A stretch of DNA of 64,000 bases from Bacillota bacterium (GCA_021791495.1 JAJYWN010000075.1:1-64000), one strand, 5' to 3'. Shown: positions 2-60,668, counted from the stretch's first letter. Program-made: numbers and translations. The notes: generated from the letters alone by a model not told the origin.

Positions 2-193
2 CTGGAGCTGCCCACCAACGACACCGAGCGCGTGGCCAAGGTCTCGTCCTGGATCAAAGCCATGGACGCGTACCCGGCCGAGTTCATCGAGAAGTACCAA
101 AAAGCCAGCCCGGTCACCGGCGCCAAAGCCGACGCACCGGCGAAGGGGGGTCAGAAGACCGGTGGCTTATTCGGAAGGTTCGGCAGACGGTAA
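2..193 (+). CDS. C-terminal end of an unrecognised protein, cut by the window edge
   Basis: The frame is open from base 2 to a TAA at 191-193 and gives the last 63 residues of a protein whose beginning lies outside the window. The visible part starts with a short charged helix-like stretch (VAKVSSWIKAMDAYPAEFIE), continues into an Ala/Gly/Lys-rich linker and ends with the basic tail LFGRFGRR. No domain is recognisable. Its stop lies 32 bases inside the next gene, so the two are probably co-transcribed and translationally coupled. It may belong to the MutL/barrel-sandwich locus, but only its position says so. Confidence 0.6.
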   Translation: MELPTNDTERVAKVSSWIKAMDAYPAEFIEKYQKASPVTGAKADAPAKGGQKTGGLFGRFGRR

Positions 194-1514
194 TTTCCCC
201 GTGGTCCAGATCCGAAAGCTGCGCAAACTGCCCCTGCCCGGTGAAGTCATCGCGCAAGTGGGCGATAAGGTCGAGCCCGAGACCGTGGTGGCGAAGATCA
301 GTCTCAAACCGGGTATCCCTTGGGTGGTGCCGGTAGCCCGCCTCCTCGGCATCGAGCCCGCCGACTTGCCGTCGTCCATGATGCGGCAGATCGGTGACCG
401 GATCAAGACGAAAGAGGTCATCGCCCGCGCCGAGAAAGGTCTGTACGGCCGCAAGGAGTACGAGGCCCCCACCGACGGCGTCATCGAAGAGATCTCCTCC
501 AAGTCCGGCCGCGTGGTCATCCGGGAAGAGTTCGGCAAGGAAGAGCCGCCCATCAGCTTCGACGCCGCCTTCGAACTTGGTGTGAAGCCGAGAGAACTGC
601 CCAAGTTCATGATGAAGAAGATCGGCGACGAAGTGAAGAAGGGCCAGTTCGTAGCGAAGAAGGGTGAGGCGCAGGCCTTTTTCACGAAGAACGCCCGGGC
701 TCCCATTTCCGGCATCATCGCCGAGATCAATGAGTCAACTGGTTATGTCACCATCGCCCGCCCCTTCAAGGAAGTAGTGGTGAAGGGTTACGTCGAAGGG
801 ACAGTCTCTGAGGTCCTTCCGGGGCGCGGCGTGTGGATCGATACACCCGCAGTCCGCATCACCGGTATCTTCGGGGTCGGCCGAGAAACCCACGGCGCGC
901 TGAAAGTCCTGGTGAACAAAGCCTCCGACACGTTGACCCCTGAGATGATCACCTCGGAGTGCGAAGGGAAGATCGTCGTCGGCGGCGCCTTCGCCACCAA
1001 CGAAGCCATCAGCAAGTGTGTCGAGGTCGGTGCGAAAGGCCTGGTCACTGGGACGGCCAGCTATCTAAACCTCATCAACTCCCTGGGCGTGAAACTGGGC
1101 GTCGGCATCACCGGCCAGGAAGACGTGGGTGTCACCGTCATCCTCATGGAAGGCTTCGGCACCCTGGACATGCGGGAGGACGCCTTCACCCTCCTCAAGG
1201 CGTTGGAGGGCCGTCGTGCCTCCATCAACGGCGCCACCCAGATCCGCGCCGGTGCCATTCGCCCCGAAGTCATCGTCCCCTTCCCTGACTATGACAAGCC
1301 CCTGACCAAGGTCACCGTGGTGGACGAGGAACTCTCTCCGGGCCAGCGGGTTCGCCTGATCAATGCCCCTTACTTCGGTATGAAGGGCAAGGTCCTGGCC
1401 CTGCCGCGCGACGCCGTAACGGTCGAGACCGAGGCCAAGGTACCGGTGGTGGAGCTGGAACTGGACGACGGCCGCAAGGTGGTCGTGCCGCGGCCCAACG
1501 TGGAAGTGCTATAG
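162..1514 (+). CDS. barrel-sandwich (lipoyl-like) / KOW-type protein, copy 1
   Basis: This 450-residue soluble protein has no signal peptide or membrane segment. The N-terminal half carries three repeats of a lipoyl/HlyD-like hammerhead pattern: PLPGEVIAQVGDKVEPETVVA (about residues 24-44), MMRQIGDRIKTKEVIA (about 73-88) and MMKKIGDEVKKGQFVA (about 150-165). The repeats are joined by stretches such as APTDGVIEEI and APISGIIAEI. A middle domain (about 210-370) contains GIFGVGRETHG, KIVVGGAF and SINGATQIRAGAIRPEVIVP. The last 60 residues look like a KOW/SH3 barrel (RVRLINAPYFGMKGKVLALP). No lysine sits in a classical biotin/lipoate MKM or DKA context, so a carrier function is not supported. Paralogues at 5367 and 59496 each follow a MutL-type ATPase gene. 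The GTG at 162, behind AAGGGGGG, aligns with the start of the 5367 paralogue. Function unknown. Confidence 0.85.
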   Translation: MAYSEGSADGNFPVVQIRKLRKLPLPGEVIAQVGDKVEPETVVAKISLKPGIPWVVPVARLLGIEPADLPSSMMRQIGDRIKTKEVIARAEKGLYGRKEYEAPTDGVIEEISSKSGRVVIREEFGKEEPPISFDAAFELGVKPRELPKFMMKKIGDEVKKGQFVAKKGEAQAFFTKNARAPISGIIAEINESTGYVTIARPFKEVVVKGYVEGTVSEVLPGRGVWIDTPAVRITGIFGVGRETHGALKVLVNKASDTLTPEMITSECEGKIVVGGAFATNEAISKCVEVGAKGLVTGTASYLNLINSLGVKLGVGITGQEDVGVTVILMEGFGTLDMREDAFTLLKALEGRRASINGATQIRAGAIRPEVIVPFPDYDKPLTKVTVVDEELSPGQRVRLINAPYFGMKGKVLALPRDAVTVETEAKVPVVELELDDGRKVVVPRPNVEVL

Positions 1515-1630: not shown

Positions 1631-2426
1631 TGTTGTTCGTACGCTTCGCGGTTTGCAGACTCGCGACCACTGTTGCGTCAGGATGTACATTTCTTGTATC
1701 GGCTCATTTGCGAAGGCGCATTTTTTCCCTCGCTCGCCTTGGGGGAAGCCCGGGACGGAGGTTCTGGGGGAGCAGACGGTCGAGATGAACTCATACCCGG
1801 GCCCGGAGTCAACATAAGACTCGGTTACGGTCTACCTCTTGGCGGCGGCCTGGCGGCGACAGACGAAAGTCTACAAAAAATGCCCTTTTCGTCAATCTCA
1901 AATACAAGAATCACCACTTCTGGCCTGACGGCCGTCAGGATCCAGCGGTTCGAACCTCTGAGGTGTCCGAGAATTACTTAACCTCGTCTGCGGAGCACTG
2001 CTCGCGGGAACAGGGTGGTAGCCGCTATGAGCAGGACTAACGAAACGGCATCGGTGGGAAGCCGCCCACCGCCCGATCCGGAATGAGGCGAGGTATCCCC
2101 AGGGCCGCGAGGTACAGCACCAGTGTCGCGGCCCTGGCCCCCCACTTCGTGCCTCTCGCCCACACCATCCCGCTTTGGCACACCTCCGCCTGCGTCGCTG
2201 ATGGCCATCACGGGACCGCCGTAACCGCCGGAACCCGCCGCTATTGAACTTCTCCGTCGGCCAGAAAGCCCTGCCGGCATGCTTTCTGGCTACCAGACCC
2301 TGCTTTAGGCAAGTCTATGACCTGAGAGCGCAGCGATTACGACTGACCCGTCGCCGGGCTACCTTTGCCGCCGTCCGGACGGGACATGGGATCGATAAAT
2401 GGCTCTTACAAGGAGGACTTTGCTGG
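1631..2426. other. non-coding stretch with repeats and hairpins
   Basis: No convincing gene is seen here. Open frames up to about 100 codons lack a ribosome binding site and a recognisable composition. The stretch holds a segment at 1687-1726 resembling 8142-8181, an 11-base identity (ACATAAGACTC, 1812-1822) with 8793-8803, and a perfect 16-base palindrome CCTGACGGCCGTCAGG at 1924-1939. It also holds the long hairpin listed at 2100-2136. The ribosome binding site AGGAGG of the next gene is at 2411-2416. Confidence 0.5.
2100..2136. repeat. perfect 11-bp inverted repeat (strong hairpin)
   Basis: CAGGGCCGCGA (2100-2110) and TCGCGGCCCTG (2126-2136) are perfect reverse complements around a 15-base loop. 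There is no U-tract on either side, so a Rho-independent terminator is not well supported. It could be a structural element of an untranslated leader for the gene at 2427 or the end of a decayed element. Confidence 0.6.
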
Positions 2427-2756
2427 GTGGACTTGGTTCCTTTCACTCCAGAGGAGCGAAAAAAGGTGATCGATGACCTGGCCGAGAAGACGCACCGCTA
2501 CGGCCTAACGGTGCCAGGAATCATCGTCGCCGAAAGCATCAAGCCGCTGTCTTTCATCGCCAGCCAGGCCGTGCACTTCTTCTCACCGTTCATCGACGCC
2601 ATGGTCGGCTTCGGCCGCACTTATCGCTACGGCAATCTCCTGGAGGATCGCCAGAACCTGGAAGACTTCATGCTCAGGCTGGAATTCCTTGCAAAAGAGG
2701 AAGACCGCGTCAAGAGACAGAAGGCGCTCGCAAAAAAGGAAGAGCGTTCCCACTGA
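2427..2756 (+). CDS. small unrecognised protein, paralogue of the next gene
   Basis: A 109-residue soluble, helix-rich protein. I start it at GTG 2427, 10 bases after AGGAGG (2411-2416); the frame stays open further upstream but that part has no support. The core is PEERKKVIDDLAEKTHRYGLTVPGIIV, then KPLSFIASQAVHFFSPFIDAM, then a highly charged C-terminal helix (EDRQNLEDFMLRLE, then KKEE). The same order (PERR, then RPISFIGSQAVQFFSPFIN, then EDRKNIDRLLDRIE) recurs in the adjacent gene, so the two are tandem duplicates. They sit directly upstream of the MutL-type ATPase. No known family recognised. Confidence 0.75.
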   Translation: MDLVPFTPEERKKVIDDLAEKTHRYGLTVPGIIVAESIKPLSFIASQAVHFFSPFIDAMVGFGRTYRYGNLLEDRQNLEDFMLRLEFLAKEEDRVKRQKALAKKEERSH

Positions 2757-2834
2757 GCCAAACAAAAGCAGCTGGCAACTGAAGGAGCGACGCGGCGCCG
2801 CGGCGAATGCATTTTGCCGCGAGGTGAAGTCTCG

Positions 2835-3242
2835 ATGTTGACCGAGATCACGCCTGAACGCCGGGACGAGATCATCGAATGGCTTGCGAAACAGGTGGTC
2901 AAACGCGGCCTTTCGACACCGGCGGTCATCTTCGTGGAAATGTCCCGTCCTATTAGTTTCATCGGCAGCCAGGCCGTCCAATTCTTCTCGCCCTTCATCA
3001 ATGTGGCCCTGAACAGCCAGCTATCGTCGGAAATCGCTCTCGTCATGGAAGACCGTAAGAACATCGACCGCCTCCTGGACCGGATCGAGGAACTCACGAC
3101 GGAGCAGGACCGGACAGAGAGAGAATGGCGGAAGAAGGAAAAGGAGCGTCGCGCCCGGGAACTCGCGGAACGCAAAGCCTCCGGTATCACCGTTACGAAT
3201 ACGCCGGCCAAGTTCATCGGGAACCTTTTCAAGAGGAAGTAG
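2835..3242 (+). CDS. small unrecognised protein, tandem paralogue
   Basis: A 135-residue protein starting at ATG 2835 behind GAGGTGAA (2821-2828). It shares with the previous gene the motif FIGSQAVQFFSPFIN and the surrounding helices. It then has a longer lysine/arginine/glutamate-rich, probably coiled-coil tail (about residues 75-115) and ends NLFKRK. The hydrophobic SQAVQFFSPF segment is too short for a clear membrane span and may be an amphipathic membrane- or partner-binding helix. Separated from the MutL-type gene by about 240 bases without a clear terminator. Function unknown. Confidence 0.8.
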   Translation: MLTEITPERRDEIIEWLAKQVVKRGLSTPAVIFVEMSRPISFIGSQAVQFFSPFINVALNSQLSSEIALVMEDRKNIDRLLDRIEELTTEQDRTEREWRKKEKERRARELAERKASGITVTNTPAKFIGNLFKRK

Positions 3243-3479: not shown

Positions 3480-5351
3480 TTGTCGGAGACCAAGCACGAA
3501 GCAAAGTTCCAACTCGACCGCGAGATAAACTCAATCCTCGCCACTGACTGCGGCAGCACGACAACTAAGGCTATCCTCATCGAGAAGGTCGGGGACGAGT
3601 ACCGCCTCATCCATCGCGGCGAAGCCCCTACCACGGTGGAGGCGCCTTTTGAGGACGTGACGGCCGGAGCCCGGAACGCCATCCGCGAACTGGAAGAGCT
3701 GACCGGGAAGAAGTTCCTATCCGACGAAGGGGTCATCACCCCGAGGCAGCCCGATGGTAGCGGCGTGGATATCTTCCTGTCCACGTCCAGCGCCGGCGGC
3801 GGCCTGCAGATGATGGTCGCGGGGGTTATCAAGATCATGACCGCCGAGAGCGCGCAGCGCGCCGCCCTCGGCGCCGGCGCCATCGTCATGGACACCATCT
3901 CCATCGACGACGGACGCCTGCCACACCAGAAAATTCAGCGCATCCGCCACCTCCGCCCCGACATGATCCTCCTCTCGGGCGGCATCGATGGCGGGACCAT
4001 CACGCACGTCGCCCAGATCGCCGAACTGATCTCCGCCGCCGAGCCCAAGCCCCGTCTGGGCATTGGCTTCAAGCTGCCGGTCATCTATGCCGGCAACACC
4101 GCGGCCCGCAAATACATCAAGGATATCCTCTCTGAGAAGACCGACCTCCGCGAGGTCGACAATCTCCGCCCCGTCCTTGAAAAAGAAGTCCTGGGTCCCG
4201 CCCGCGAAGAGATCCATAACCTCTTCATGGAGCACGTCATGGCCCAGGCCCCCGGCTACAACAAGCTGATGAAATGGACCCCCGTGCCCATCATGCCGAC
4301 TCCTGGCGCCGTGGGCCTTGGGATGCAGAACGCCGCCCGCGAGCATAACATGTCGGTCATCGGCGTGGACATCGGCGGCGCCACCACCGACGTGTTCTCC
4401 GTCTTCGGCGACGATTTCGAGCTCTTTAACCGCACGGTGTCGGCGAACCTGGGCATGAGCTACAGCATCTGCAACGTGCTACTGGAAGCCGGGGTCGCCA
4501 ACATCATGCGGTGGGTGCCCTTCGACATCGACGAGGGCGACCTCCGAAACCGTATCCGGAACAAGATGGTCCGCCCCACCACGGTCCCGCAGACCCAGGA
4601 CGACCTCATCATCGAGCAGGCCATTTCCCGCGAAGCCTTGCGCCTGGCGTTCGAGCACCATAAGAGCCTGGCCGTCGGCCTCCGCGGCATCCAGCAAGCC
4701 CGCGACGCCGGGTCGGCCTTCGACCAGACCCTGACCGGCCAGAGCCATATCGACCTGATGAAACTAGGGATGCTGATCGGCTCCGGCGGCGTGCTCTCCC
4801 ACGCCCCGCGCCGCGTCCAGTCGGTCATCATGATGCTGGATGCCTTCCAACCGGAAGGCGTGACCCAGTTGGCCGTGGACTCCATCTTCATGATGCCGCA
4901 GTTAGGCGTGCTCTCCACCGTGCACCCGAAGGCATCGGCGCAGGTCTTCGACCGCGACTGCCTCATCCGGCTCGGCACGGCCATCGCCCCCGTAGGCCCC
5001 GGACGCGAAGGCCAGGAGACCATGCGCGTGAAGGTCACCTACGCCGACGGCAAGGTGGTCGAAGAGACTTCGACCTTCGGCACCATCAAGGCCCTTCCGC
5101 TCGCCGTGGGCGAAACGGCCGAAGTGGAAATCCACCCAGGCCGCTCCTTCGATATCGGGCACGGTGCCGGCCACCGCGCCACCATCACCGCCAAAGGCGG
5201 CACCGACGGCATCATCCTTGATTCCCGCGGCCGCCGCCCCTTCTCCCTGCCGGACGACAAGGCCACCCGCATCAAGAAGCTGGTGGGATGGTTCGATTCC
5301 ATGAATGTCTACCCGCCGGAGACCATCGCCCGGTTGAAGAAGGCCAATTGA
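3480..5351 (+). CDS. MutL/GlmL-type ASKHA ATPase, copy 1
   Basis: A 623-residue protein of the glutamate mutase MutL (GlmL) family, whose known member is the accessory gene of glutamate mutase. The ASKHA (actin/Hsp70-like) nucleotide motifs are intact: phosphate-1 ATDCGSTTTKA (about residues 20-30), phosphate-2 VIGVDIGGATTDV (about 293-305) and an adenosine motif LIGSGGVLSHAP (about 431-442). Start TTG at 3480, behind GGGAGGAGAG. No glutamate mutase S or E gene and no B12-binding motif lies nearby, so the family name should not be read as its role. Its partner is more likely the barrel-sandwich protein 15 bases downstream. Probable role (inference): an ATP-dependent switch or chaperone for that protein or for a membrane complex. 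Confidence 0.85.
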   Translation: MSETKHEAKFQLDREINSILATDCGSTTTKAILIEKVGDEYRLIHRGEAPTTVEAPFEDVTAGARNAIRELEELTGKKFLSDEGVITPRQPDGSGVDIFLSTSSAGGGLQMMVAGVIKIMTAESAQRAALGAGAIVMDTISIDDGRLPHQKIQRIRHLRPDMILLSGGIDGGTITHVAQIAELISAAEPKPRLGIGFKLPVIYAGNTAARKYIKDILSEKTDLREVDNLRPVLEKEVLGPAREEIHNLFMEHVMAQAPGYNKLMKWTPVPIMPTPGAVGLGMQNAAREHNMSVIGVDIGGATTDVFSVFGDDFELFNRTVSANLGMSYSICNVLLEAGVANIMRWVPFDIDEGDLRNRIRNKMVRPTTVPQTQDDLIIEQAISREALRLAFEHHKSLAVGLRGIQQARDAGSAFDQTLTGQSHIDLMKLGMLIGSGGVLSHAPRRVQSVIMMLDAFQPEGVTQLAVDSIFMMPQLGVLSTVHPKASAQVFDRDCLIRLGTAIAPVGPGREGQETMRVKVTYADGKVVEETSTFGTIKALPLAVGETAEVEIHPGRSFDIGHGAGHRATITAKGGTDGIILDSRGRRPFSLPDDKATRIKKLVGWFDSMNVYPPETIARLKKAN

Positions 5352-5366
5352 AAGGAGTGATGACAG

Positions 5367-6491
5367 GTGGCCCACGCATACACGCCTGGATTGAAAGTAA
5401 CTGAACAAACGGTCATTCATAAGACCCGCAGACTTCCCCTTCTCGGCGAAGTTCTGGTAAAAGAAGGCGACCTGGTCACTCCCGAAATGGTGGTGGCCAC
5501 GACCAATATCCCCGGCAACCCGCAGACCATCAACGTCGCCAACCAACTCGGTATCGAAGCCGAGGACGTGGAAGGCGTCATGGTAAAGAAGCAAGGTGAC
5601 CAGATCAAGAAGGGTGACCGCATCGCCTACTACAAGGCCTTCTTCGGTCTCATGAAAAAAGAAGTGCTTTCACCCATCGACGGATACGTGGAAATGGTGT
5701 CGCCAGTCACCGGGCAGGTAGCCCTGCGCGAACCCCCCATCCCGGTGCAGATCGAGGCCTACGTCAAGGGGCGCGTTTCTTCCGTCATCCCGAAGGAAGG
5801 CGTGGTCATTGAGACCAAGGGCGCCTTCATCCAGGGTATCTTCGGCGTCGGCGGCGAGGTCCAGGGCGTCATCAAGTGCCTGGCGAAGAGCCAGGACTAC
5901 GTCCTCGACGCGGCCGACATCAAGCCCGAGCACAAGGGCTGCATCGTGGTGGGTGGCTCGCTGGTGACGGGCGCCGCTTTGAAGAAGTGCGCTGAGTACG
6001 GAGTCAAGGGCGCGGTGGCGGGCGGCATCGTCGACACCGATCTCATCAGTTACCTTGGGTACGACATCGGCGTGGCCATCACCGGCCATGAGGACGTGCC
6101 GACTACGGTCATCATCACCGAAGGCTTCGGCAAGATCACCATGGCGGCGAAGACCTATAACCTCCTCCGTGACCTGGACGGCTGGGTCGCCTCCATCAAC
6201 GGCGCCACCCAGATCCGCGCCGGCGTCATGCGGCCGGAGATCATCGTTCCGGATTACGTGCCGAAGCACAAGGCGGTCGATGCCGCCGCTTACGCCGAGG
6301 GCATGGTGCCCGGCACGCCCATCCGCATCATCCGCGAGCCATACTTCGGCCTCGTGGCTGAAGTGGTGGAACTGCCGCCGGAACTCCAGATGATTGACAC
6401 CGAGTCCCACGTGCGTATCCTCAAGGCCAAGCTGGCGAGCGGTGAGATCGTCACCATTCCCAGGGCCAATGTGGAGATCATTGAAGGCTAG
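5367..6491 (+). CDS. barrel-sandwich / KOW-type protein, copy 2
   Basis: A 374-residue paralogue of the protein at 162, with two rather than three hammerhead repeats: PLLGEVLVKEGDLVTPEMVVA (about residues 24-44) and MVKKQGDQIKKGDRIA (about 72-87, followed by SPIDGYVEMV). The conserved middle domain has GIFGVGGEVQG, GCIVVGGSLVTG and SINGATQIRAGVMRPEIIVP, and the C-terminal KOW-like barrel has PIRIIREPYFGLVAEVVELP. GTG start at 5367 with AAAGGAG 9 bases before it; only 15 bases separate it from the MutL-type gene, so they form one operon. Cytoplasmic by sequence (no signal peptide). Function unknown. Confidence 0.85.
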   Translation: MAHAYTPGLKVTEQTVIHKTRRLPLLGEVLVKEGDLVTPEMVVATTNIPGNPQTINVANQLGIEAEDVEGVMVKKQGDQIKKGDRIAYYKAFFGLMKKEVLSPIDGYVEMVSPVTGQVALREPPIPVQIEAYVKGRVSSVIPKEGVVIETKGAFIQGIFGVGGEVQGVIKCLAKSQDYVLDAADIKPEHKGCIVVGGSLVTGAALKKCAEYGVKGAVAGGIVDTDLISYLGYDIGVAITGHEDVPTTVIITEGFGKITMAAKTYNLLRDLDGWVASINGATQIRAGVMRPEIIVPDYVPKHKAVDAAAYAEGMVPGTPIRIIREPYFGLVAEVVELPPELQMIDTESHVRILKAKLASGEIVTIPRANVEIIEG

Positions 6492-37389: not shown

Positions 37390-37495
37390 GCCACAGGTGG
37401 CTAGTGCCTTTTCCCAGGACCAGTTTTCGCCTTTCGCCCGCGCCGGGGTTGCGGGCAGTGGAAAGGCGTTTCTCCCAGGCCGGTGGGCCTTTTTT
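37390..37495 (+). ncRNA. structured leader of the membrane operon with terminator-like end
   Basis: Three helices can be drawn: GCCAC/GTGGC (37390-37401), a long hairpin at 37428-37468 (CGCCTTT with AAAGGCG outside, GCCCGC with GCGGGC inside) and AGGCC/GGCCT (37477-37490) followed by a run of five T. A stem plus T-run ahead of a gene with its own ribosome binding site (AGGAGGTGA at about 37531) suggests an attenuated leader or riboswitch. I cannot match it to a known class. The helices do not reproduce the c-di-GMP-I signature. Confidence 0.45.
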
Positions 37496-37547
37496 GTTAC
37501 CTACCCTGCCTGGGGGGCGAAAAGCCAAGAGGAGGTGACAACTTAAT

Positions 37548-38387
37548 ATGTCTTACCTGTTCTTGATGGCCGCGGCAGCTGCCCCCAAGGGGCCCAAGGC
37601 AGGGATCTTTATCAACAACAATAACGTCGTGGCCAGTTTTGTCGTATTTGTTGTTTTCGGATTCCTGTCGTTCTATCTGGTGTCCCGCGCGCGGTCCGGC
37701 GCCAAGATGCCGACCATCCGCAAGATCGCCGGTCTGGAGGCCATCGACGAAGCTATCGGGCGCGCCACGGAAATGGGCCGTCCGGTGCACATTTCCAACC
37801 GAACCGGCGGTATCAATGATGCCCAGACCTTCGCCTTCTGGGGGTATCTGGGGTATGTGGCAAAGACCTGCGCCCGCTACGACACCAAGCTCATCAACAC
37901 CGTCGGGAGTTACCTGGTACAATCGGTCAATCAGGAAATCATAAGGTCCGCTTACCTCGAAGTGGGCCGTCCGGATGCCTACAACCCCGACGACATCCGG
38001 TACTACACCAACTCCCAGTGGGCCTTCACCATCGCCGTCATGGGCATGATGGAGCGCGAACGCCCCGCGGCCAACCTCTGGATCGGCAACTGGCTCGCCG
38101 AGAGCATGCTCCTGGCGGAGGTCGGCTCACAGACCGAGTCCATTCAGATCGCGGCCACCTACAACATTCTTCAGATTCCCTTCTTCATCACCACCTGCGA
38201 CTTCACCCTGATCGGTGAGGAACTGTACGCCGCCAGCGCCTACCTTTCCAAGGAACCACGCTTGACGGGTACCATCGTGGCGGAAGATGCTTTCAAGCTT
38301 CTGCTGGGCGCCCTGATCGTCGTAGGTACCGTGGTGGCTACCGTTTCACCTAAGGCTAAGTGGCTGACCAACCTCGTCAACCAGTAA
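37548..38387 (+). CDS. DUF6754-like membrane protein
   Basis: A 279-residue protein with two clear membrane segments, one near the N-terminus (VVASFVVFVVFGFLSFYLV, about 28-46) and one at the C-terminus (LLLGALIVVGTVVATV, about 248-263). The soluble centre contains ISNRTGGINDAQTFAFWGYLGYV, VNTVGSYLVQSVNQEIIRSAYLEVG-like segments and SQTESIQIAATYNILQIPFFITTCDFTLIGEELYAASAYLS. I associate this with DUF6754, but this rests on memory of the pattern. Strong ribosome binding site AGGAGGTGA. First of four tightly spaced membrane-protein genes. Function unknown. Confidence 0.75.
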   Translation: MSYLFLMAAAAAPKGPKAGIFINNNNVVASFVVFVVFGFLSFYLVSRARSGAKMPTIRKIAGLEAIDEAIGRATEMGRPVHISNRTGGINDAQTFAFWGYLGYVAKTCARYDTKLINTVGSYLVQSVNQEIIRSAYLEVGRPDAYNPDDIRYYTNSQWAFTIAVMGMMERERPAANLWIGNWLAESMLLAEVGSQTESIQIAATYNILQIPFFITTCDFTLIGEELYAASAYLSKEPRLTGTIVAEDAFKLLLGALIVVGTVVATVSPKAKWLTNLVNQ

Positions 38388-38413
38388 CCGCGTAAAGGAG
38401 GTGCAAGAGGCAA

Positions 38414-39031
38414 ATGCGCAAGCAATTACCCATCATCATCACGATGGTCGTTGGAGGTGTCCTCTTCCTCACGTCCACCTTCTTCGCCGCGGAGAAGACG
38501 GGCTTGGGGACCAACATAGACCGGTTCCAGCAGTTGATGGCGAACGTCGCGTTCTTGATCGGCATGGGCACCCTGTTTCGCCTCCACTATAACAATATCC
38601 GCCGGCGCAAGGAAAACTGGGTGTTCTCGGCCTGGTTCATCTTTGCGATGATCGCCTACTTCATCCTTGGCATGGTCGAAACGAACAAGGGCAAGAACTT
38701 CATGGCCTTGTACAATGGCATCATAACCAACACCAACTCCACCATCTTTGCCATTGTGGCCTACTACATTGTGTCTTCGGCCTACCGGACCTTCCGCGTG
38801 AGGTCTGGAGAGGCTACCGTTCTTCTGCTCACCGCCGTTGTGACGATGTTGGCGGCTGTTCCAATCGGCGAGGCTATCTGGCCTGGATTTGCCAGCATTC
38901 GCGACTGGGTTCAGAGCGTTCCCAATGTCGCGGCTACCCGGGCGGTAGCCATCGGCACCTTCCTGGGCGGTTACGCCACTCTCCTCCGGGTCTTCACCGG
39001 CATGGAGCGGCAGCAGCTTGGGTCGCGATAG
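38414..39031 (+). CDS. multi-pass membrane protein of the DUF6754-like operon
   Basis: A 205-residue protein with about six predicted membrane segments: LPIIITMVVGGVLFLTSTFF, LMANVAFLIGMGTLF, FSAWFIFAMIAYFILGMV, TIFAIVAYYIVSSAY, TVLLLTAVVTMLAAVPIGEA, AVAIGTFLGGYATLLRVF. The connecting loop HYNNIRRRKENW is basic. ATG 38414 with AAAGGAGGTG upstream. It lies 26 bases after the DUF6754-like gene. No recognised family. Confidence 0.8.
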   Translation: MRKQLPIIITMVVGGVLFLTSTFFAAEKTGLGTNIDRFQQLMANVAFLIGMGTLFRLHYNNIRRRKENWVFSAWFIFAMIAYFILGMVETNKGKNFMALYNGIITNTNSTIFAIVAYYIVSSAYRTFRVRSGEATVLLLTAVVTMLAAVPIGEAIWPGFASIRDWVQSVPNVAATRAVAIGTFLGGYATLLRVFTGMERQQLGSR

Positions 39032-39052
39032 GGTCAGGAAGGAGGATAGAGC

Positions 39053-39880
39053 GTGAGCTGGGAAAAATGGCAGAACATCGACCGCCGCATCATCTACCTT
39101 CTGGTTACCCTGGTCCTGATCATCCCCATCTTCAAGCCGATGGGGCTGCCCATTACGGTTCAGAAGGATTTGACCGGCTTGTTCTACGATCGGTTTGACA
39201 AGATCCCCGCCGGGTCCATCGTTTACTTCGACGCCGCGTACAGCCCGGCCCAAGACGCCGAGATCACCCCTATGGTCAAGGCCCTGTTCAAGCAGTGCAT
39301 GAAGAACGGGGTGAAGATCGTTGTCGGCGGGCAGTTCGAGACCGGTGTCCCCTTCATTAACATAGCCCTCACTCAGGTGGCCGCGGAGACCAAGGCCAAG
39401 TATGGCGAGGACTACGTGGAAATCGGGTACAAGCCCGGTGGTGTAGCCACGGTCCGCGTGATGATCAACGACTTCTGGGAAGGCGCCAAGTCTACCGACT
39501 TCTACGGGGACTCCTTCAACACTCTGCCCCTGATGCAGAAAGTCAAGAAGTTCGACGAGAAGGCTTTTGCCGCGATCGTCATTTTCGAGTCCGGTTCGCC
39601 GGGAATGGAGACCTGGTACACCTACACCCCAAAGATTCCTCTGTATAAGGCCTCGGTGATGGTCGAGGTGTCCGGTTCCCTGCCGTACCTCAAATCGGGC
39701 CAGTTGAAGGGCGTCTTGCCGGGGATGCGTGGTGCGGCCGAGTATGAGAAACTCATCAAGGCTCCCGGCGCCGCCACTAAGTTGATGGACGCCCAATCCG
39801 CCGCCCACCTATTGGTTATTCTGCTCCTCGTGGTGGGTAACGTGGGTTACTTGATGTCGACAAGGAGGGGTAAAGCATGA
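39053..39880 (+). CDS. membrane-anchored protein of the DUF6754-like operon
   Basis: A 275-residue protein with an N-terminal membrane segment (IIYLLVTLVLIIPIF) and a C-terminal one (HLLVILLLVVGNVGYLM), so about 220 residues (YFDAAYSPAQDAEITPMVKALFKQCMKNGVKIVVGG...) lie between them, most probably outside the cell. The block SGQLKGVLPGMRGAAEYEKLI, just before the last segment, is striking. GTG 39053 with AGGAAGGAGG. It resembles a periplasmic or exoplasmic partner of the multi-pass proteins. Function unknown. Confidence 0.78.
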   Translation: MSWEKWQNIDRRIIYLLVTLVLIIPIFKPMGLPITVQKDLTGLFYDRFDKIPAGSIVYFDAAYSPAQDAEITPMVKALFKQCMKNGVKIVVGGQFETGVPFINIALTQVAAETKAKYGEDYVEIGYKPGGVATVRVMINDFWEGAKSTDFYGDSFNTLPLMQKVKKFDEKAFAAIVIFESGSPGMETWYTYTPKIPLYKASVMVEVSGSLPYLKSGQLKGVLPGMRGAAEYEKLIKAPGAATKLMDAQSAAHLLVILLLVVGNVGYLMSTRRGKA

Positions 39881-40488
39881 CCGTCATCACCCCGACGATG
39901 AGCACTTGGCTGGGGGTCATTTTCACCCTCTTTGCCTTTAGCTTTCTCTATAAGGAAAACCCGTTCTACCGTTTCGCGGAGCACACCCTGGTGGCCATGC
40001 AGGCGGCGTACACAGCGGTCCTGGAGTACTACAACTACGTCAAGCCGGCCGTCCAGCAGGACATCCTGAAGGGCGGAAGGACATGGCTCATCCTGGCCAT
40101 CGTCGTCGGCCTTCTGTACTACACCATGTTCCATCCGAAGCTGTCCTGGCTCTCCCGGTTCCCCGTGAGCATCGCCGTGGGATATGGCGTGGGCTACAAC
40201 CTGGCCTACACCCCGCGTCCTTTTCTCGTGCAGATTAGGGATAGCTTCACGCAGATCAAAGATGTCAACAGCTTCTTATTCGTCCTGTTCCTCCTCTGCA
40301 CGCTGACCTACTTCATCTTCACCATCTCCCATGGGTCCAAGGTGGTGCGTTATGGCGCCATTAGTGGCCGCTGGATCATGATGATCACCTTCGGATACAT
40401 GTTCGGGAATACGGTCCAGGGGCGTTTCTCGCTGCTCCTCGGACGGTTCCTGTTCCTTCTGAAAGACGCCTTCCACTTGGTCAAGTGA
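39877..40488 (+). CDS. multi-pass membrane protein, last gene of the DUF6754-like operon
   Basis: A 203-residue protein with about four to five membrane segments: WLGVIFTLFAFSFLYKEN, TWLILAIVVGLLYYTMF, FPVSIAVGYGVGYNLAY, SFLFVLFLLCTLTYFIFTI, and probably WIMMITFGYMFGNTV. ATG 39877 overlaps the previous stop (ATGA). Ends ahead of the terminator at 40521. Unrecognised; position implies it forms one membrane complex with the three preceding products. Confidence 0.8.
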   Translation: MTVITPTMSTWLGVIFTLFAFSFLYKENPFYRFAEHTLVAMQAAYTAVLEYYNYVKPAVQQDILKGGRTWLILAIVVGLLYYTMFHPKLSWLSRFPVSIAVGYGVGYNLAYTPRPFLVQIRDSFTQIKDVNSFLFVLFLLCTLTYFIFTISHGSKVVRYGAISGRWIMMITFGYMFGNTVQGRFSLLLGRFLFLLKDAFHLVK

Positions 40489-40520: not shown

Positions 40521-40550
40521 GGCGGCCCCGGATGTCGGGCCCGCCTTTTT
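40521..40550 (+). terminator. terminator of the DUF6754-like operon
   Basis: GGCGGCCCCG (40521-40530) pairs with CGGGCCCGCC (40536-40545) with one mismatch, loop GATGT, and is followed by TTTTTCC. It lies 33 bases after the operon's last stop. Confidence 0.85.
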
Positions 40551-40775: not shown

Positions 40776-40884
40776 ATGCCCCTCCGCCGACGGCTCCTTC
40801 GTGTCGTGTGGCACCACAGGGTAGTGACCGAATACCTTGTTGCTAACGTCCGGCGACAAGAGCTTGGCAGGGAGCGTTGAAGTA

Positions 40885-41739
40885 ATGGCCCGCAGTGACG
40901 GCGCAGATCACCGGTTACCAGTTACGAAGCGCGGCTTACCAGCCTGGACCGATTTCTCAACCTATCCCATCGCCGGCCGCCATCCCAAGCCCAGGTCAGA
41001 GGGACTGACCATGGTCCTTGACAAGGGGATGGGGCTCGGTGAGACCCGCGACCTCCTCGACTTGGCGGGCGGCTACGTCGACCTCATCAAGATCAGCTTT
41101 GGTAGCTCGGCCCTGTACCCCCCCGAAGTCCTCCGGCGCAAGCTGGCACTCATCCGGGAATACGGTGTAGGGACGTGCCCCGGCGGTACTTTGCTGGAAG
41201 TAGCCTTGTTCCAGGGAGTGCTGGACCGGTACCTGGGGTGGGCTGAGAAGTGCGGGTTCACGTGGCTGGAAGTCTCGGACGGCACCATCGAGATGCCCCA
41301 GACGGCCCGTTCAACCTGCATCCGCCTGGCGGTGCGACACGGCTTCCGGGTGGTGAGCGAAGTGGGAAAAAAGGATTCGCACCAGCGGTTGGACCCGGCG
41401 GGCGTCGGCCGCCAGGCCCGGAGCGACTTGGACGAAGGGGCCGTCAAGGTCATCGTCGAGGCCCGTGAATCCGGGCGCGGGGTGGGTATCTACGGAGACG
41501 ACGGCCAAGTGAAGCACGACGACCTTGAGGAAATCGTTTCGTTCCTTCCCGACCCACGCGTCATTATGTGGGAAGCGCCGCTGAAGAACCAGCAGGAAGC
41601 CCTCATCCGCCGCTTCGGCCCGAACGTGAACTTGGGGAACATCCAGCCGGGGGAGGTCATCGCCCTGGAATCTCTGCGCGTCGGGTTGCGGTCCGATACG
41701 CTGAAGACCTGCTTGCCCAAGAAGGAGGGGGAAAGATGA
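40885..41739 (+). CDS. phosphosulfolactate synthase (ComA-like)
   Basis: A 284-residue TIM-barrel enzyme that adds sulfite to phosphoenolpyruvate to make phosphosulfolactate. The barrel motifs LTMVLDKGMGLG, DLIKISFGSSALYP, GVGTCPGGTLLEVAL, TWLEVSDGTIEMP and VVSEVGKKD are characteristic. I start at ATG 40885 with GGGAG before it; the frame upstream to TTG 40837 is unsupported. The enzyme serves coenzyme M synthesis in archaea and sulfolactate production in Bacillus spores. Followed by a small membrane peptide and a YeiH-type exporter, so sulfite or sulfonate handling is likely here. Confidence 0.9.
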   Translation: MARSDGADHRLPVTKRGLPAWTDFSTYPIAGRHPKPRSEGLTMVLDKGMGLGETRDLLDLAGGYVDLIKISFGSSALYPPEVLRRKLALIREYGVGTCPGGTLLEVALFQGVLDRYLGWAEKCGFTWLEVSDGTIEMPQTARSTCIRLAVRHGFRVVSEVGKKDSHQRLDPAGVGRQARSDLDEGAVKVIVEARESGRGVGIYGDDGQVKHDDLEEIVSFLPDPRVIMWEAPLKNQQEALIRRFGPNVNLGNIQPGEVIALESLRVGLRSDTLKTCLPKKEGER

Positions 41740-41843
41740 AGGTTTTCGGGGTACGCGTTCACCTTGATTGGGTGGCCGTTATCCTGGCCGGGATCGCCGC
41801 TGTGCTGATAAAGGTCGGGGTCATCACCAAGGTGCCGTGGTGA
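41736..41843 (+). CDS. 35-residue single-span membrane peptide
   Basis: ATG 41736 overlaps the comA-like stop (ATGA) and has AAGGAGGGGG a few bases upstream. It encodes MKVFGVRVHLDWVAVILAG followed by IAAVLIKVGVITKVPW, a single hydrophobic helix of about 20 residues. It lies between the synthase and the YeiH-type transporter, so it may be a small subunit of that transporter. Too short for family assignment, but translation signals and hydrophobicity support it. Confidence 0.65.
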   Translation: MKVFGVRVHLDWVAVILAGIAAVLIKVGVITKVPW

Positions 41844-41878
41844 AATCGGGGTCGCGGCGGCGAAGGGGAGGAGAAGAA

Positions 41879-42934
41879 GTGAGTGTGATGCAAGAGAGCT
41901 CGTCTCCCAGCAAAGGGCTGGGAGCGGCGATGGGCGCACTCTACCGGGGTCTGGCTTACGTACCGGGCATCTGCCTGCTACTGGGCGTGGGCTATGCGGG
42001 TAAACTGATCGCTCCGCTGGTACCGCATACGGAATACGTCCTGTTCGCCATCGCCCTCGGGATGCTGGTTTCGAATACCGTGGGTGTTCCCAAAGTCTTC
42101 GTGCCGGGAGTGCACACCTATGAGTTGTGGCTGAAGACCGGCATCGTGTTCATGGGCGCGGGTCTGGCGCTACAGAATGTGGCCAAGATCGGCGGCCCCG
42201 GGGTCGTTCTGGTCCTGGTGGAAATCGGGGTGTCCGTCCTGGCCGCGCGCTACCTGGCCCGCTGGTTCGGCCTGAAAGAAAAGCTGGGTAGCCTGATCGG
42301 GGTGGGCGTGGGCATCTGCGGCGTCTCCGCCATCATCGGAGCCTCCGGCGCCATTGACGCCGACGAGGACGACCAAGGCTACGCCATCGCCACCATCCTC
42401 ATGTTCGGTGCGGTGATGGTATTTCTGCTGCCCCTGCTCGGGCAGTTCTTGGGACTGAGCGACCGCTTCTTTGGTTTCTGGGCCGGAGTGTCCGTGGATA
42501 ACACCGCTGAGACTATCGCCACGGGGTTCGCCTTCTCGGAGGCTGCCGGCAGCATCGCCACCGTGGTCAAGCTGGCCCGCAACACCTTGATGGGCCTGGT
42601 CATCCTGGGCATGGCTCTCTGGTACGCCCAGCGGGGACTGTCGGCGCAGGTGCGAAACAAGGGACGATTCCTCTGGGACCGTTTCCCCAAGTTCGCGCTG
42701 GGCTTCCTGGTGATGTCGGCCCTCGCCACCGCGGGGTCCTTCGCCGCGCCGGAGGTGAAGGCCATGACGGCCCTGTCCAAGTGGCTCTTCGCTATGACCT
42801 TCGCCGGTGTGGGGCTGTCGATGCGCTTCTCGGACATGAAGGCGGGTGTCAAGCCTTTCATCGTCGGGTTTGGGGTCGAGGCTATCGTAGCCCTGGTGAA
42901 CTTCGTCTTGGTGGCGGCGTTGATCGGATCCTGA
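41879..42934 (+). CDS. YeiH/UPF0324-type putative sulfate exporter
   Basis: A 351-residue membrane protein with about ten hydrophobic segments. Family signatures include GMLVSNTVGVP, LKTGIVFMGAGLAL, SLIGVGVGICGVSAIIGASGAI, GFWAGVSVDNTAET, VVKLARNTLMG and FAGVGLSMRFSDMK. GTG 41879 follows GGGGAGGAG. Members are annotated as putative sulfate exporters on weak evidence. Co-location with the synthase that fixes sulfite into sulfolactate suggests export of a sulfonate or sulfite. Confidence 0.85.
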   Translation: MSVMQESSSPSKGLGAAMGALYRGLAYVPGICLLLGVGYAGKLIAPLVPHTEYVLFAIALGMLVSNTVGVPKVFVPGVHTYELWLKTGIVFMGAGLALQNVAKIGGPGVVLVLVEIGVSVLAARYLARWFGLKEKLGSLIGVGVGICGVSAIIGASGAIDADEDDQGYAIATILMFGAVMVFLLPLLGQFLGLSDRFFGFWAGVSVDNTAETIATGFAFSEAAGSIATVVKLARNTLMGLVILGMALWYAQRGLSAQVRNKGRFLWDRFPKFALGFLVMSALATAGSFAAPEVKAMTALSKWLFAMTFAGVGLSMRFSDMKAGVKPFIVGFGVEAIVALVNFVLVAALIGS

Positions 42935-53801: not shown

Positions 53802-54506
53802 ATGGCGCTGGAACAGGCGGCATTCTTGGACGAGCCTATCCTTCGAGCAGTGAACCTGAACAAGGCCTTCTTCATGGGCGAGGCCATCTACGCGGTGAAC
53901 AATGTGTCCCTGACCGTCGGCAAGGGGGAGTTCGTGGCCATCGTCGGCCCGTCCGGTAGTGGCAAGAGCACCCTCCTGAGCCTCCTGGGCGGTCTCGACC
54001 GCCCCATCAGCGGCGACGTTATTCTCGACGGCCAACGGTACTCCAAGCTCAGCGAGAATGGTCTGGCCTTGCTGCGCCGCCGGCACCTGGGGTTCGTCTT
54101 TCAGTTTTTCAACCTCATCCCGCACCTATCAGCCCTGGAAAACGTGGCCTTGCCCATGCGGTTCAACCGCCTCGCGCGCACCGCCGTGACGGCCCGTGCC
54201 CAGGAACTACTGGAAACGGTCGGACTGGGCTCGCGGCTGCGACACCTCCCTCTGCAGCTCTCTGGCGGCGAACAGCAGCGCGTCGCCATCGCCCGGGCCC
54301 TGGCCAACAACCCGGCGGTGGTCCTGGCCGACGAACCTACCGGCAACCTGGACTCCAAGACTAGAGAAGAGATGGCTTCCCTCTTCGAAAAGCTGAACCG
54401 CGAACAAGGGCAGACCTTCGTGGTGGTCACCCACGACGAGGGGCTCACCGGATGCGCCCACCGCGTCATTCACATGCGGGACGGGCAGATAGAGAAGATT
54501 GCCTGA
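53802..54506 (+). CDS. ABC transporter ATPase (LolD/MacB type)
   Basis: A 234-residue ATPase: Walker A GPSGSGKST, Q-loop VFQFFNLIP, signature LSGGEQQR, Walker B VVLADEPTGNLD and H-loop VVVTHD are all intact. This subfamily serves FtsX/MacB-like permeases that move lipoproteins or other substrates out of the membrane rather than across it. ATG 53802 behind GGGGGG. Its stop overlaps the start of the first permease gene, so they form an operon. Confidence 0.93.
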   Translation: MALEQAAFLDEPILRAVNLNKAFFMGEAIYAVNNVSLTVGKGEFVAIVGPSGSGKSTLLSLLGGLDRPISGDVILDGQRYSKLSENGLALLRRRHLGFVFQFFNLIPHLSALENVALPMRFNRLARTAVTARAQELLETVGLGSRLRHLPLQLSGGEQQRVAIARALANNPAVVLADEPTGNLDSKTREEMASLFEKLNREQGQTFVVVTHDEGLTGCAHRVIHMRDGQIEKIA

Positions 54507-57423: not shown

Positions 57424-59499
57424 ATGACCGACTATAACACGGCACTGGTCATCGAACTCGGGAACGTGGTCACGAAAGCCGCCCTGTTCGAAGTGGACGG
57501 CAAGGGTGTTCCCCGCCTGATCGCCCGTGGCGAGGCCCCCACCACCGGGCCGGAAGGCGGCGCCTCGCTGGCCCTGGGCGCTCGGCAAGCTTTGGCGGAA
57601 GTCGAGGAAGCCGCGGGGAGGCCGCTCCTGGACGCTAGTGGCGGCGGCAGGCCCCTGGCAGATAGGACTTTGCTCGTCTCCAAAGCCGGCGGCGGGCTGA
57701 TGGCCGCCGTGGCCGGGGTGGTGAAGGACATCTCCGCGCTGACCGCGGAGAAAGCCGCCCTGGAGGGCGGGGCGACGGTGGCCGACCTCTTTGCCTTGAA
57801 TGACGGACGCATGCCGAACCAGCAGCGGCTGGCCTTGCGGCAGAGCCGCCTGGACCTGCTGCTCCTGGCCGGCGGAGTGGACGAAGGGCTGCTGCAGTTC
57901 GGGCGCGGTACCCAGGTGATGGCCATGGCCAAGAACCTTTCCGCCGCTCTGCCGGTCCCGCGCTTTGACCGGGCAGCGCCCCTACCGGTGGTTTTCGCCG
58001 GGAGTGCCGAGGCCCGGGCCCAGGTAGCGGAGACTTTCAGCGGGAAAGCGGAATTCCGCGTCACTGACAACGTCCGGCCCACCCTCGAGGAAGAGAAGGT
58101 GGAGGCCGCGGCCGGTTCGGTGGCCGGACTCTTCGAGGAACGGGTCGTGTCCACCCATCCGGCCTATCAGGAGCTGAAGCAATGGGTCGAGCGGTCCGTG
58201 CCGACGGGACACGCCCTTTCGGCCCTGGTCAAGGCATGGGCGGCGCTGTCCGTACCGGCGACGGCGCCCCCGGCGCAGGGCGTTAGGAAAGACCCCGCCG
58301 GCGTCAATAATCGGCTCATTACCGACGAGAAGGAACCGGCGGCGGTTCCTCCCAACGTGATGCTGGTGGATCTGGGCGGCGAGTCGGTCGACATTTACTC
58401 GGTCATCGACGGCCTGTTCACTCGAACCGCCCAAGACACGTCTTCGCTCGGGCTGGATGGCGACGCGACGACCACGCCCGCGGCCGGTGGCCCACGGACC
58501 CTGGACAGGAGCCGCCTCGGGGTGGGGCCGGGAGCCAGCCAGGGCCCCGGTGCGGCGGTGGGCGCGAGACTTGCGGCCGCGGCCGAAGCCGCCGACGGGC
58601 ATGCCTCCGGCAAGCTGGACATAGCCCAGGTCGGCCGTTGGCTGCCCTTCTCCATAGAGCCGTCCCATCTGGCTAACTCGGTCCACAACCGCCGGCTGCA
58701 CCCGGCAGCCATCCCCGAAACATGGCGCGAACTCATGGTCGACTTGGCCGTGCGGCGGGAAGAACTGCGCCAGGCTCTGGGCCGCCACCGCCGCTCGGCA
58801 TCCCTCCTGAAAGGCATCCAGCGGCGCCGGCATATCGGGGAAGTCATGGGAACCTACCTGACTGTGGGTGGCCAGACCATCGTCGACATGTCGCACATTC
58901 GGACTGTAGTCGTGACCGGCGGCGCCTTATGCGGCTCCGCCCTGGACCCGGCGGCCGCGGTCCTGGCATTACTGGAAGGGCTGCAGTTATCCGGCGTGAC
59001 GGCCCTCTACGGCGATCGCCAGCTGGTGTTAGCTGGGCTTGGAACGATGCTGGTGAGCGGAGTGGTGTCCGCCGGGCAAGTGGCACTGGATCGCCTGGCG
59101 CTGGAACCCATGGCGGTCACGGTTGCCCCGGCCCCCGGTGAGGGCGGCTGGATCTGGCGCCGCGGCGGCCAGGCGATGGCCTCGGTGACGGTACGTTGGG
59201 TCGGCGGCGGCGAGGACGCCAAGGTGATTCCGGGCCAGCTCACGCGGGTGCGCGTTCCCAAGGGAGTGACCTGCACGGTTACGGTCCGGCCCACGCCGGG
59301 CTGGGATTTCGGTGGGGGGACGGGCGGCACCGTATCGGTCACCATGGAGAAGTGCCCGGTGGCAGGCGTCTTCCTTGACGGTCGCCCGCGTCCCATCGCC
59401 CTCCCCGCCCATCCGGTCCGCTGCCGCGAGACGATCGCCGGGTGGCTGCGCGGTACTGGGGTGGGCCCGACCACTGGTTGGGGAGGTGAGGTCAAGTGA
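57424..59499 (+). CDS. MutL/GlmL-type ASKHA protein, copy 2, with altered nucleotide motifs
   Basis: A 691-residue protein recognisably related to the one at 3480 by LFALNDGRMPNQQRLALRQSRLDL, LLLAGGVDEGLLQFG, RVTDNVRPTLEEEK, SIEPSHLANSVHNR and VTGGALCGSALDPAAAV. The phosphate-1 loop is IELGNVVTKA instead of TDCGSTTTKA, and phosphate-2 is LVDLGGESVDIYSV instead of GVDIGGATTDVFSV. The replaced Asp, Ser and Thr residues suggest weak or absent ATP hydrolysis. It carries Gly/Ala-rich insertions (about residues 340-385). ATG 57424 behind AGGAGG. It sits inside the FtsX/ABC operon and overlaps the next gene by four bases. Confidence 0.85.
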   Translation: MTDYNTALVIELGNVVTKAALFEVDGKGVPRLIARGEAPTTGPEGGASLALGARQALAEVEEAAGRPLLDASGGGRPLADRTLLVSKAGGGLMAAVAGVVKDISALTAEKAALEGGATVADLFALNDGRMPNQQRLALRQSRLDLLLLAGGVDEGLLQFGRGTQVMAMAKNLSAALPVPRFDRAAPLPVVFAGSAEARAQVAETFSGKAEFRVTDNVRPTLEEEKVEAAAGSVAGLFEERVVSTHPAYQELKQWVERSVPTGHALSALVKAWAALSVPATAPPAQGVRKDPAGVNNRLITDEKEPAAVPPNVMLVDLGGESVDIYSVIDGLFTRTAQDTSSLGLDGDATTTPAAGGPRTLDRSRLGVGPGASQGPGAAVGARLAAAAEAADGHASGKLDIAQVGRWLPFSIEPSHLANSVHNRRLHPAAIPETWRELMVDLAVRREELRQALGRHRRSASLLKGIQRRRHIGEVMGTYLTVGGQTIVDMSHIRTVVVTGGALCGSALDPAAAVLALLEGLQLSGVTALYGDRQLVLAGLGTMLVSGVVSAGQVALDRLALEPMAVTVAPAPGEGGWIWRRGGQAMASVTVRWVGGGEDAKVIPGQLTRVRVPKGVTCTVTVRPTPGWDFGGGTGGTVSVTMEKCPVAGVFLDGRPRPIALPAHPVRCRETIAGWLRGTGVGPTTGWGGEVK

Positions 59500-60668
59500 G
59501 GCAACCTCTTCTTTCCGGTCTCGGCCTGGCGGCGCAAACCATCTTCCGGCGGCGTCGCAGCCTTCCGCTGGGGGGCCGGGTGGAAGTGGCCGTCGGCTCG
59601 GCCGTGGAGCCGGCGACCCTCATCGGGTATAACAGCGCCGATGAACGCCTGCATTTCCTTAGGACCGAAGTTGAAGGCGACAAAATGCTGGCGACCCTCC
59701 TGAAGAAGGCGGGGGACGGCGTCAAACGGGGCGAGCCCGTGGCGTATTTCACCTATCTGTTCGGCCTCGGTTACAAGGAGTACGTTTCGCCGGTGGACGG
59801 GACGGTCGAGGCCATCTCCAACGTCTCCGGGATCATCACCATCCGTGAGTACCCGACGCCGGTCCCGGCGTTGCTGCAGGGCACTGTCGTGGAAGTCGAA
59901 GCGGGGCGGAGCGCCGTAATCGAGGGGCGGGGCACCGTTATTGACGCGGCCGTCGGACTTGGCGACACGGCGGCGGGACGCCTGGTTTTGCTCGCGGGGG
60001 AACCGCGGCCCGCGGACGCCCGCGGCACTATCCTGGTCATCCCCGGTTTTCTGACGGCGCCGGTGCTGGCAGCGGCTTTTCGGGCACAGGCCGCGGGTTT
60101 GGTGGCGGCGGGTTGCGACCACGCGACCTTGGCCGCTTTCGCCCGCGGGACCGCGGGTCTGACGTTCGAGGAATTCGCCGCCCGCCACTACTCGGCGGCC
60201 CGCCGGAACCGTATCGATACCACTGGTGGGAGTCAGGCGGTGGAGATGCCCGTGGTCCTGACCGAAGGTTTCGGCCCCCTGCCCATGCGGCCGGAAGTGA
60301 AGGATGCACTGGCTGCGGCGGCGGGGCGGGAGGCCTGGGCTTACATGGACGGGCGTGCCTGGGCGTCGGGCGGGTCGGCGCGGGCCGAAGTGATTCTCTC
60401 GGGCCTGGACGGAGACGGCGTTGGCGAAGGCGCGGCGGGCGAAGGCGCGGCGGGCGAAGGCGCGGCGGGTGCCGCCGTCCGGTTCGTCCCTGGAGCCAGG
60501 GTCCGGGTGTTGGCCGGTCCCGGCGCGGGCAAGGTCGGGACGCTGAAGGCCCTACCCTCCGAAGCCGTGAAACTGGAGACTGGCTTGGAAGTTCCCGCGG
60601 CCCAAGTGGAACTGGATGCCGATGGGCTGATGACGGTGCCCCGCTGTAACCTGGAGGTCTTGCGGTGA
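59496..60668 (+). CDS. barrel-sandwich / KOW-type protein, copy 3
   Basis: A 390-residue paralogue of the proteins at 162 and 5367. The N-terminal hammerhead region is more diverged (PLGGRVEVAVGSAVEPATLIG, KKAGDGVKRGEPVAYF, SPVDGTVEAISNVSG). The middle domain shows VLTEGFGPLPMRPEVKD. The KOW-like end is RVRVLAGPGAGKVGTLKALP. A 15-base tandem repeat (60423-60467) encodes three GEGAA units. GTG 59496 overlaps the MutL-type stop (GTGA). Same gene order as at 3480-6491. Confidence 0.85.
   Translation: MRQPLLSGLGLAAQTIFRRRRSLPLGGRVEVAVGSAVEPATLIGYNSADERLHFLRTEVEGDKMLATLLKKAGDGVKRGEPVAYFTYLFGLGYKEYVSPVDGTVEAISNVSGIITIREYPTPVPALLQGTVVEVEAGRSAVIEGRGTVIDAAVGLGDTAAGRLVLLAGEPRPADARGTILVIPGFLTAPVLAAAFRAQAAGLVAAGCDHATLAAFARGTAGLTFEEFAARHYSAARRNRIDTTGGSQAVEMPVVLTEGFGPLPMRPEVKDALAAAAGREAWAYMDGRAWASGGSARAEVILSGLDGDGVGEGAAGEGAAGEGAAGAAVRFVPGARVRVLAGPGAGKVGTLKALPSEAVKLETGLEVPAAQVELDADGLMTVPRCNLEVLR

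Follow-up and report, generated by a model that had tools for sequence, protein, structure and literature searches.

What does a bacterium do with four tightly spaced membrane-protein genes, of which only the first belongs to a named family, one labelled only 'unknown function'? The operon that raises this question lies at 37548-40488 of a 64,000-nt stretch of DNA from a Bacillota bacterium (GCA_021791495.1 JAJYWN010000075.1:1-64000); the whole stretch is called the window here, the four genes g1 to g4 in order, and one g1-g4 copy a cassette. An earlier note on this DNA had proposed that the four products form a membrane complex, and had raised a possible link to genes in the same window for a MutL-family ATPase and a barrel-sandwich protein (BSH). 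Our reading, which we hold with about as much belief as doubt, is that g1-g4 are the substrate-specific membrane module of a system for the uptake of amino acids and amide-linked derivatives as nutrients, energized by a shared MutL ATPase and BSH.

The operon is as compact as first described. Four open reading frames follow one another on the plus strand (Table 1) with intergenic gaps of 26, 21 and -4 bp, each behind a strong Shine-Dalgarno site (AGGAGGTG, AAGGAGGTG, AGGAGGA and AAGGAGGG in gene order). The complementary topologies claimed for the products are also borne out, with two spans in g1, six in g2, an outside domain in g3 and several spans in g4. The g1 protein matches PF20539 (DUF6754) at an E value of 8e-88 and 294.3 bits, far above the gathering cut-off of 27; g2, g3 and g4 have no family match in Pfam or NCBIfam. 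In the literature searched, no mention of DUF6754 was found.

The order g1-g2-g3-g4 is kept in every complete copy among 40 fetched class-level loci, and a wider contig search finds the same order in approximately 80 loci, with a few reordered or solo exceptions (g4 is ahead of g3 in two loci). Fetched copies in this order number 60+ and come from about ten phyla; the carriers include Bacillota (Symbiobacterium, Fermentithermobacillaceae), Cloacimonadota, WOR-3, Zixibacteria, Eisenbacteria, Coatesbacteria, Latescibacterota, Fermentibacteria, anammox planctomycetes and Armatimonadota, among others. DUF6754 is present in 7 copies in the window's genome and in 1 to 27 copies in each of 24 of 61 related genomes, with the 27 copies in genome G016. 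Evolutionary distances of the subunits correlate with each other, with r of 0.65-0.79 over 132 cassettes and of 0.48-0.71 within the 25 analysed cassettes of G016 (0/1000 permutations); the cassette therefore evolves as a unit. The operon is thus confirmed as real, with an order conserved far beyond chance. Conserved order, co-evolution and the co-occurrence described below strengthen the membrane complex proposed in the earlier note, although the physical complex itself is something we infer. In Cloacimonadota and Fermentibacteria, a solo g1 without g2-g4 is found with other partner genes beside full cassettes (seven loci).

The suspected link to MutL/BSH finds support in both co-occurrence and direct adjacency. 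In the phylogenetic profile of the 61 related genomes, 24 carry both DUF6754 and MutL/BSH, none carries DUF6754 alone, 3 carry the pair alone and 34 carry neither (2 of these 34 have a weak BSH hit only). Genomes that routinely carry one without the other, which the earlier note had named as evidence against a link, are not seen in this set. The association has a Fisher p of about 5e-14 by genome and 4e-10 by family, the families still being related to each other, and in two of the three exceptions the contig stops approximately where g1-g4 would sit. In other phyla, BSH is present in 47 of 48 DUF6754 genomes, many of which carry these genes side by side. At nine loci in Bacillota, MutL (PF13941) is the next gene after g4 and is followed by BSH. 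The Bacillota cluster reads bPH-g1-g2-g3-g4-MutL-BSH-c13, and that of other phyla bPH-c13-MutL-BSH-g1-g2-g3-g4, where c13 is a small helical protein and the bPH-like gene encodes a protein with two transmembrane (TM) spans. Near-obligate co-occurrence of g1-g4 with MutL/BSH is therefore well supported.

The ATPase partner matches the whole PF13941 model (E value 5e-120), full length at C7:3534-4961 with 415 bits and above the cut-off, and retains the ASKHA ATP-site motifs DCGSTTTK, DIGGATTD and GSGGVLSHA. One orthologue (L043) is below the NCBIfam cut-offs, with 220.9 versus 475 bits for the GlmL equivalog and 160.3 versus 204 for glmL_fam. The main locus of the window's genome comprises the end of contig C56 (bPH-like, MutL) and the window start (BSH, c13, c13, MutL, BSH). 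Positions 1-146 of the window overlap the C56 end by approximately 145 bp with a single mismatch; the junction of the two contigs thus probably falls inside a MutL gene. This main locus is without g1-g4, and the window cassette is 31 kb downstream. Cassettes far outnumber MutL genes (27 versus about 3-6 in G016), and it is for this reason that we propose a shared energizer.

The same co-occurrence could arise if g1-g4 were an ion-gradient-driven transporter and MutL/BSH served another membrane process, both simply marking the same lineages. MutL/BSH does lie apart from g1-g4 in several phyla and is also found fused and in ABC loci. However, the genes stand next to each other in one cluster, in two different orders, in about ten phyla, and DUF6754 shows a near-strict one-way dependence on MutL/BSH; together these make the explanation very unlikely.

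Several arrangements of the pair are recorded here in their own right. MutL and BSH are fused (~950-1150 aa), apart from g1-g4, at seven loci in Cloacimonadota, Fermentibacteria and some Bacillota. In the window itself (53802-63635), a divergent MutL/BSH pair stands inside a MacB/FtsX-type ABC locus with two ATPases and three FtsX permeases, similar to loci in two other genomes (G002 and G030); such pairs may therefore serve more than one membrane system. In several FCB-like phyla, the MutL/BSH/g1-g4 cluster has genes for glycine decarboxylase P on its upstream side and one for a lipoate ligase on its downstream side (eight loci). Lipoylation of BSH, hinted at in some phyla by the nearby genes for lipoate ligase and GcvP, was rejected by eye, given that the turn where the lysine is expected reads L-P-G. 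Literature searches on MutL with barrel-sandwich proteins returned nothing relevant.

Clues to the cargo come from RNA switches upstream of sister cassettes. T-boxes (RF00230) are found directly upstream of g1 at loci L034 (106.5 bits), L189 (87.3 bits) and L039 (82.1 bits); the latter two are below the strict cut-off of 93 bits, but their E values are 5e-18 and 1e-17. L034 and L189 are in G016, and L039 is on contig C60 of the window's genome. The specifier triplet is UGG (Trp) in all three, and, judged by the Rfam alignment, these T-boxes would read tryptophan. A lysine riboswitch is located directly upstream of the cassette at L177 (84.8 bits versus a cut-off of 30). The cassettes at L034 and L039, which come from two families, are orthologous, with 71% identity over the four subunits and the same Amidohydro_1 gene downstream. 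A terminator test of 64 leaders picked out only the T-box cassettes and one more. T-box motifs near two further cassettes (L038 and L040) were rejected as leaders, not being upstream of g1, and additional leaders from four genomes (G030, G033, G049 and G008) gave no family at E 0.1. A T-box activates its genes under a shortage of the amino acid, and the normal effect of a lysine riboswitch is to silence its genes while lysine is plentiful; hence, import or synthesis fits better than export. Seven families of amino-acid transporters include genes with T-boxes (PMC2494555), and lysine riboswitches have been found on lysine biosynthesis and transporter genes (PMC5584792).

This regulation bears on a machine for envelope assembly, export or lipid handling, in which an actin-like MutL ATPase and a BSH adaptor would organize membrane complexes. 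The pairing of MutL/BSH with FtsX/ABC genes in three genomes, the FN3-like, exoplasmic extensions that g1 has in other phyla and an M23 peptidase upstream in Cloacimonadota are in its favour, but it leaves the Trp/Lys control and the cytosolic amidohydrolase partners unexplained, and a T-box that raises expression on amino-acid starvation suits import better than export. We consider such a machine quite unlikely.

Uptake of amino acids or their derivatives is also consistent with the genes next to the cassettes. Same-strand neighbours include D-aminoacylase-like and Xaa-Pro-dipeptidase-like amidohydrolases and members of M20, M24, creatininase, AstE/AspA, S12 and S9, and amide hydrolases are enriched (18 of 43 same-strand cassette neighbours versus 29 of 318 other genes). 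A strongly hydrophobic N-terminus is absent in 15 of the 17 neighbour hydrolases checked; they are therefore probably cytosolic, and their substrates must enter or arise in the cell. The main MutL locus adjoins genes for S58, M55 and M20 members and for asparaginase II. Upstream of a cassette on contig C4 of the window's genome (L037 8686-9492 and neighbours) are three genes of the creatininase cluster and one of AstE/AspA type, and S9 prolyl-oligopeptidases of one sequence cluster are found near DUF6754 cassettes in three genomes, including the window's (43379-45469).

AlphaFold2 models of g1 and g3, built with family alignments, are good (pLDDT 88 and 94, respectively). The models are alike: a TM helix at the N-terminus leads into a Rossmann-like a/b domain, after which come a short helix and a long TM helix at the C-terminus. 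Modelled g1 matches Sir2 (1ma3, Z 11.6, root-mean-square deviation 3.6, 144 aligned) and modelled g3 matches 1kjn (Z 10.0, root-mean-square deviation 3.4, 139 aligned), with transhydrogenase domain III (dIII) and carbon monoxide dehydrogenase (CODH) epsilon among the matches of both. In these models the two domains are Rossmann-like at the level of the fold, and the matches name a fold, not a function. Next to the membrane, g1 has a charge bias (K+R 6.0 versus D+E 3.5) that puts its domain inside, and in g3 the bias puts the domain outside. In other phyla most long g1 proteins (73 of 81) have a signal-like hydrophobic start, and they bear an FN3-like extension ahead of the TM helix; the g1 domain is placed inside because the charge bias agrees with this N-terminal extension of relatives, which is exoplasmic. 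The two Rossmann-like domains thus probably face opposite sides of the membrane. Despite the common TM, Rossmann-like, TM layout of g1 and g3, homology by sequence was rejected for g1/g3 and for g2/g4 (hhalign probability ~1% each).

Among solved structures, g1, g2 and the MutL partner have no relatives by sequence, g3, g4, c13 and bPH have only chance-level sequence hits, and Foldseek gave no match below 1e-3. Among the VIA rows of the structure comparison no transporter is conspicuous, which excludes nothing. At the level of sequence, g2 and g4 have no Pfam or PDB match to EcfT/S-components or ABC permeases.

The transhydrogenase dIII matches, and weak matches of BSH to RnfC_N and NQRA_N (27.8 bits in one member versus a cut-off of 25.6, 15.5 in another), bring to mind energy or electron transduction of the Rnf/Nqr or transhydrogenase kind, with BSH as an RnfC/NqrA-like docking subunit. 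No recognized Fe-S or flavin subunit is present in the conserved cluster, though, and up to 27 diverged copies per genome under amino-acid-responsive control are ill suited to a core energy complex; we regard this role as very improbable. Such folds would also suit a membrane-bound protein that acts on amino-acid derivatives as an enzyme or senses them: its Rossmann-like domains would bind or modify a ligand on either side, with MutL as an ATP-dependent reactivator or amidohydrolase-like partner. The best Z scores to Sir2, transhydrogenase dIII and CODH epsilon, the place of MutL in a hydantoinase/reactivase-like superfamily (with weak Hydantoinase_A hits) and the numerous amidohydrolase neighbours speak for it. 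We nevertheless find it unlikely, given that two multi-span partners are always present, that the neighbouring hydrolases already supply the cytosolic chemistry, that no catalytic motif is recognized and that amino-acid switches usually govern synthesis, charging or transport.

Several observations weigh against the uptake reading. Neither sequence nor solved structures link any subunit to a known transporter, and the known MutL relatives (GlmL) reactivate B12 enzymes. The window cassette has neither of the two clues: its adjoining genes are GGDEF/EAL and ComA, and no switch is recognized. Hydrolase neighbours and switches are established in Bacillota only, and the hydrolase enrichment is inflated because seeds were partly picked from neighbours. 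A recognized amino-acid switch is found on only 4 of approximately 99 cassettes in 24 genomes. These carrier genomes have 270 T-boxes and 16 lysine riboswitches, of which 3 and 1 are at cassettes, and dealing the 270 T-boxes at random to ~30,000 transcription units (a rough assumption) would put about 0.8 at the 99 cassettes; the count alone is therefore not overwhelming. We give the RNA evidence weight because of the switches' known meaning, their conservation in two families and their agreement with the hydrolase neighbours.

In the mechanism that we propose, the g3 domain would be presented outside and the g1 domain inside, with g2 and g4 supplying the membrane path. The cytosolic MutL-family ATPase, with BSH, c13 and bPH-like proteins, would dock on the cytoplasmic face, and ATP hydrolysis would drive the uptake of amino acids, N-acyl amino acids or small peptides. 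A few MutL/BSH copies would serve many paralogous cassettes, each tuned to its own cargo, and the gene for the cytosolic hydrolase that would process this cargo often lies next to the cassette. Transport itself we infer from regulation and gene neighbourhood; the import direction, the coupling to ATP, the roles given to single subunits and a substrate of this kind for the window copy are likewise presumptive. More tentatively, these parts may make up a new class of primary active importer, in which a MutL/ASKHA-type (actin/Hsp70-fold) ATPase and a BSH adaptor power many interchangeable four-subunit modules that have a Rossmann-like domain on each face of the membrane and take up amino acids and amide-linked nutrients. 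To our knowledge, the MutL-type fold is not known to power transport. We rate the system as new and have moderate confidence in the uptake mechanism set out above. If this mechanism is right, about ten mostly uncultured phyla depend for nutrient uptake on a machine that resembles no known transporter family, a large group of membrane genes present in many copies in these bacteria is explained, and DUF6754 gains testable substrates (Trp and Lys). Even with the mechanism wrong, an eight-gene system conserved across phyla and undescribed in the literature searched is a clear target.

Table 1 Positions of the operon and of its candidate partner genes in the window
Feature	Position	Strand	Basis
Terminator-like hairpin 58 nt 5' of g1	37477..37490	+	Consensus match; no Rfam family
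Ribosome-binding site of g1, AGGAGGTG	37530..37537	+	Read from sequence
g1, DUF6754: TM helix, Rossmann-like a/b domain (predicted cytoplasmic), C-terminal TM helix; 279 aa	37548..38387	+	PF20539, AlphaFold2 model, charge bias, relatives' exoplasmic extension at the N-terminus
g2, six TM spans, N-in; 205 aa; no known family	38414..39031	+	Pfam/NCBIfam search, topology
g3, TM helix, Rossmann-like domain (probably exoplasmic), C-terminal TM helix; GTG start; 275 aa; no known family	39053..39880	+	AlphaFold2, charge bias
g4, multi-span membrane protein; 203 aa; 4 bp overlap with g3; no known family	39877..40488	+	Open reading frame, topology
Terminator-like hairpin and T run at operon end	40524..40541	+	Consensus match only
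BSH partner, first copy	162..1514	+	
c13 small partner family, first copy, start uncertain	2244..2756	+	
c13 small partner family, second copy	2814..3242	+	
Long MutL-family ASKHA ATPase partner	3480..5351	+	
BSH partner, second copy, KOW-like C-terminus	5367..6491	+	
Divergent MutL in MacB/FtsX-type ABC locus, other sub-type, not claimed as operon partner	57424..59499	+	
Divergent BSH of MacB/FtsX-type ABC locus	59496..60668	+	

The operon is flanked by a GGDEF/EAL gene 228 bp upstream and a ComA-type phosphosulfolactate synthase gene ~350 bp downstream, both probably units of their own. The upstream hairpin may be either the end of the GGDEF/EAL unit or an attenuator, and a riboswitch search of the window cassette's leader in Rfam gave no match. 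The ComA-type gene and the gene for a YeiH-like membrane protein that follows it span 40837-42934, and a TldD/TldE-like (PmbA) metallopeptidase pair is on the minus strand at 48632-51369.

Among known systems, the GlmL/MutL family (PF13941; methylaspartate mutase accessory protein) is closest to the ATPase partner by its whole-model match and ASKHA ATP-site motifs. However, the partner is longer (~600-640 aa, with an extra C-terminal part), is below the GlmL cut-offs and goes with membrane genes in a cluster that lacks the mutase. The likeness of BSH to the N-terminal barrel-sandwich domains of RnfC/NqrA consists of the weak matches given above, and BSH differs from them in having a middle region and a KOW-like C-terminus and no recognized Fe-S or flavin domain. 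Amino-acid transporters under T-box or lysine-riboswitch control (MFS, APC, NSS, LIVCS, NhaC, ABC, LysP and LysW) have the same regulatory logic directly upstream (PMC2494555, PMC5584792), although g1-g4 are unrelated four-subunit proteins that Pfam places in none of those families. Group II energy-coupling factor (ECF) transporters, as described in PMC4820897 and PMC7755397, combine a shared energizing module with many S-components. The g1-g4 system is not a member of that group: it has no ABC ATPase and no recognized EcfT or S-component homologue, no ABC_tran gene recurs in the g1-g4/MutL/BSH cluster, and the recurrent partner ATPase is MutL, of the MutL/ASKHA kind, beside a four-protein module with soluble domains probably on both sides. 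By hypothesis, the likeness would lie in the organization, with many scattered substrate modules of the g1-g4 kind sharing a few ATPase modules.

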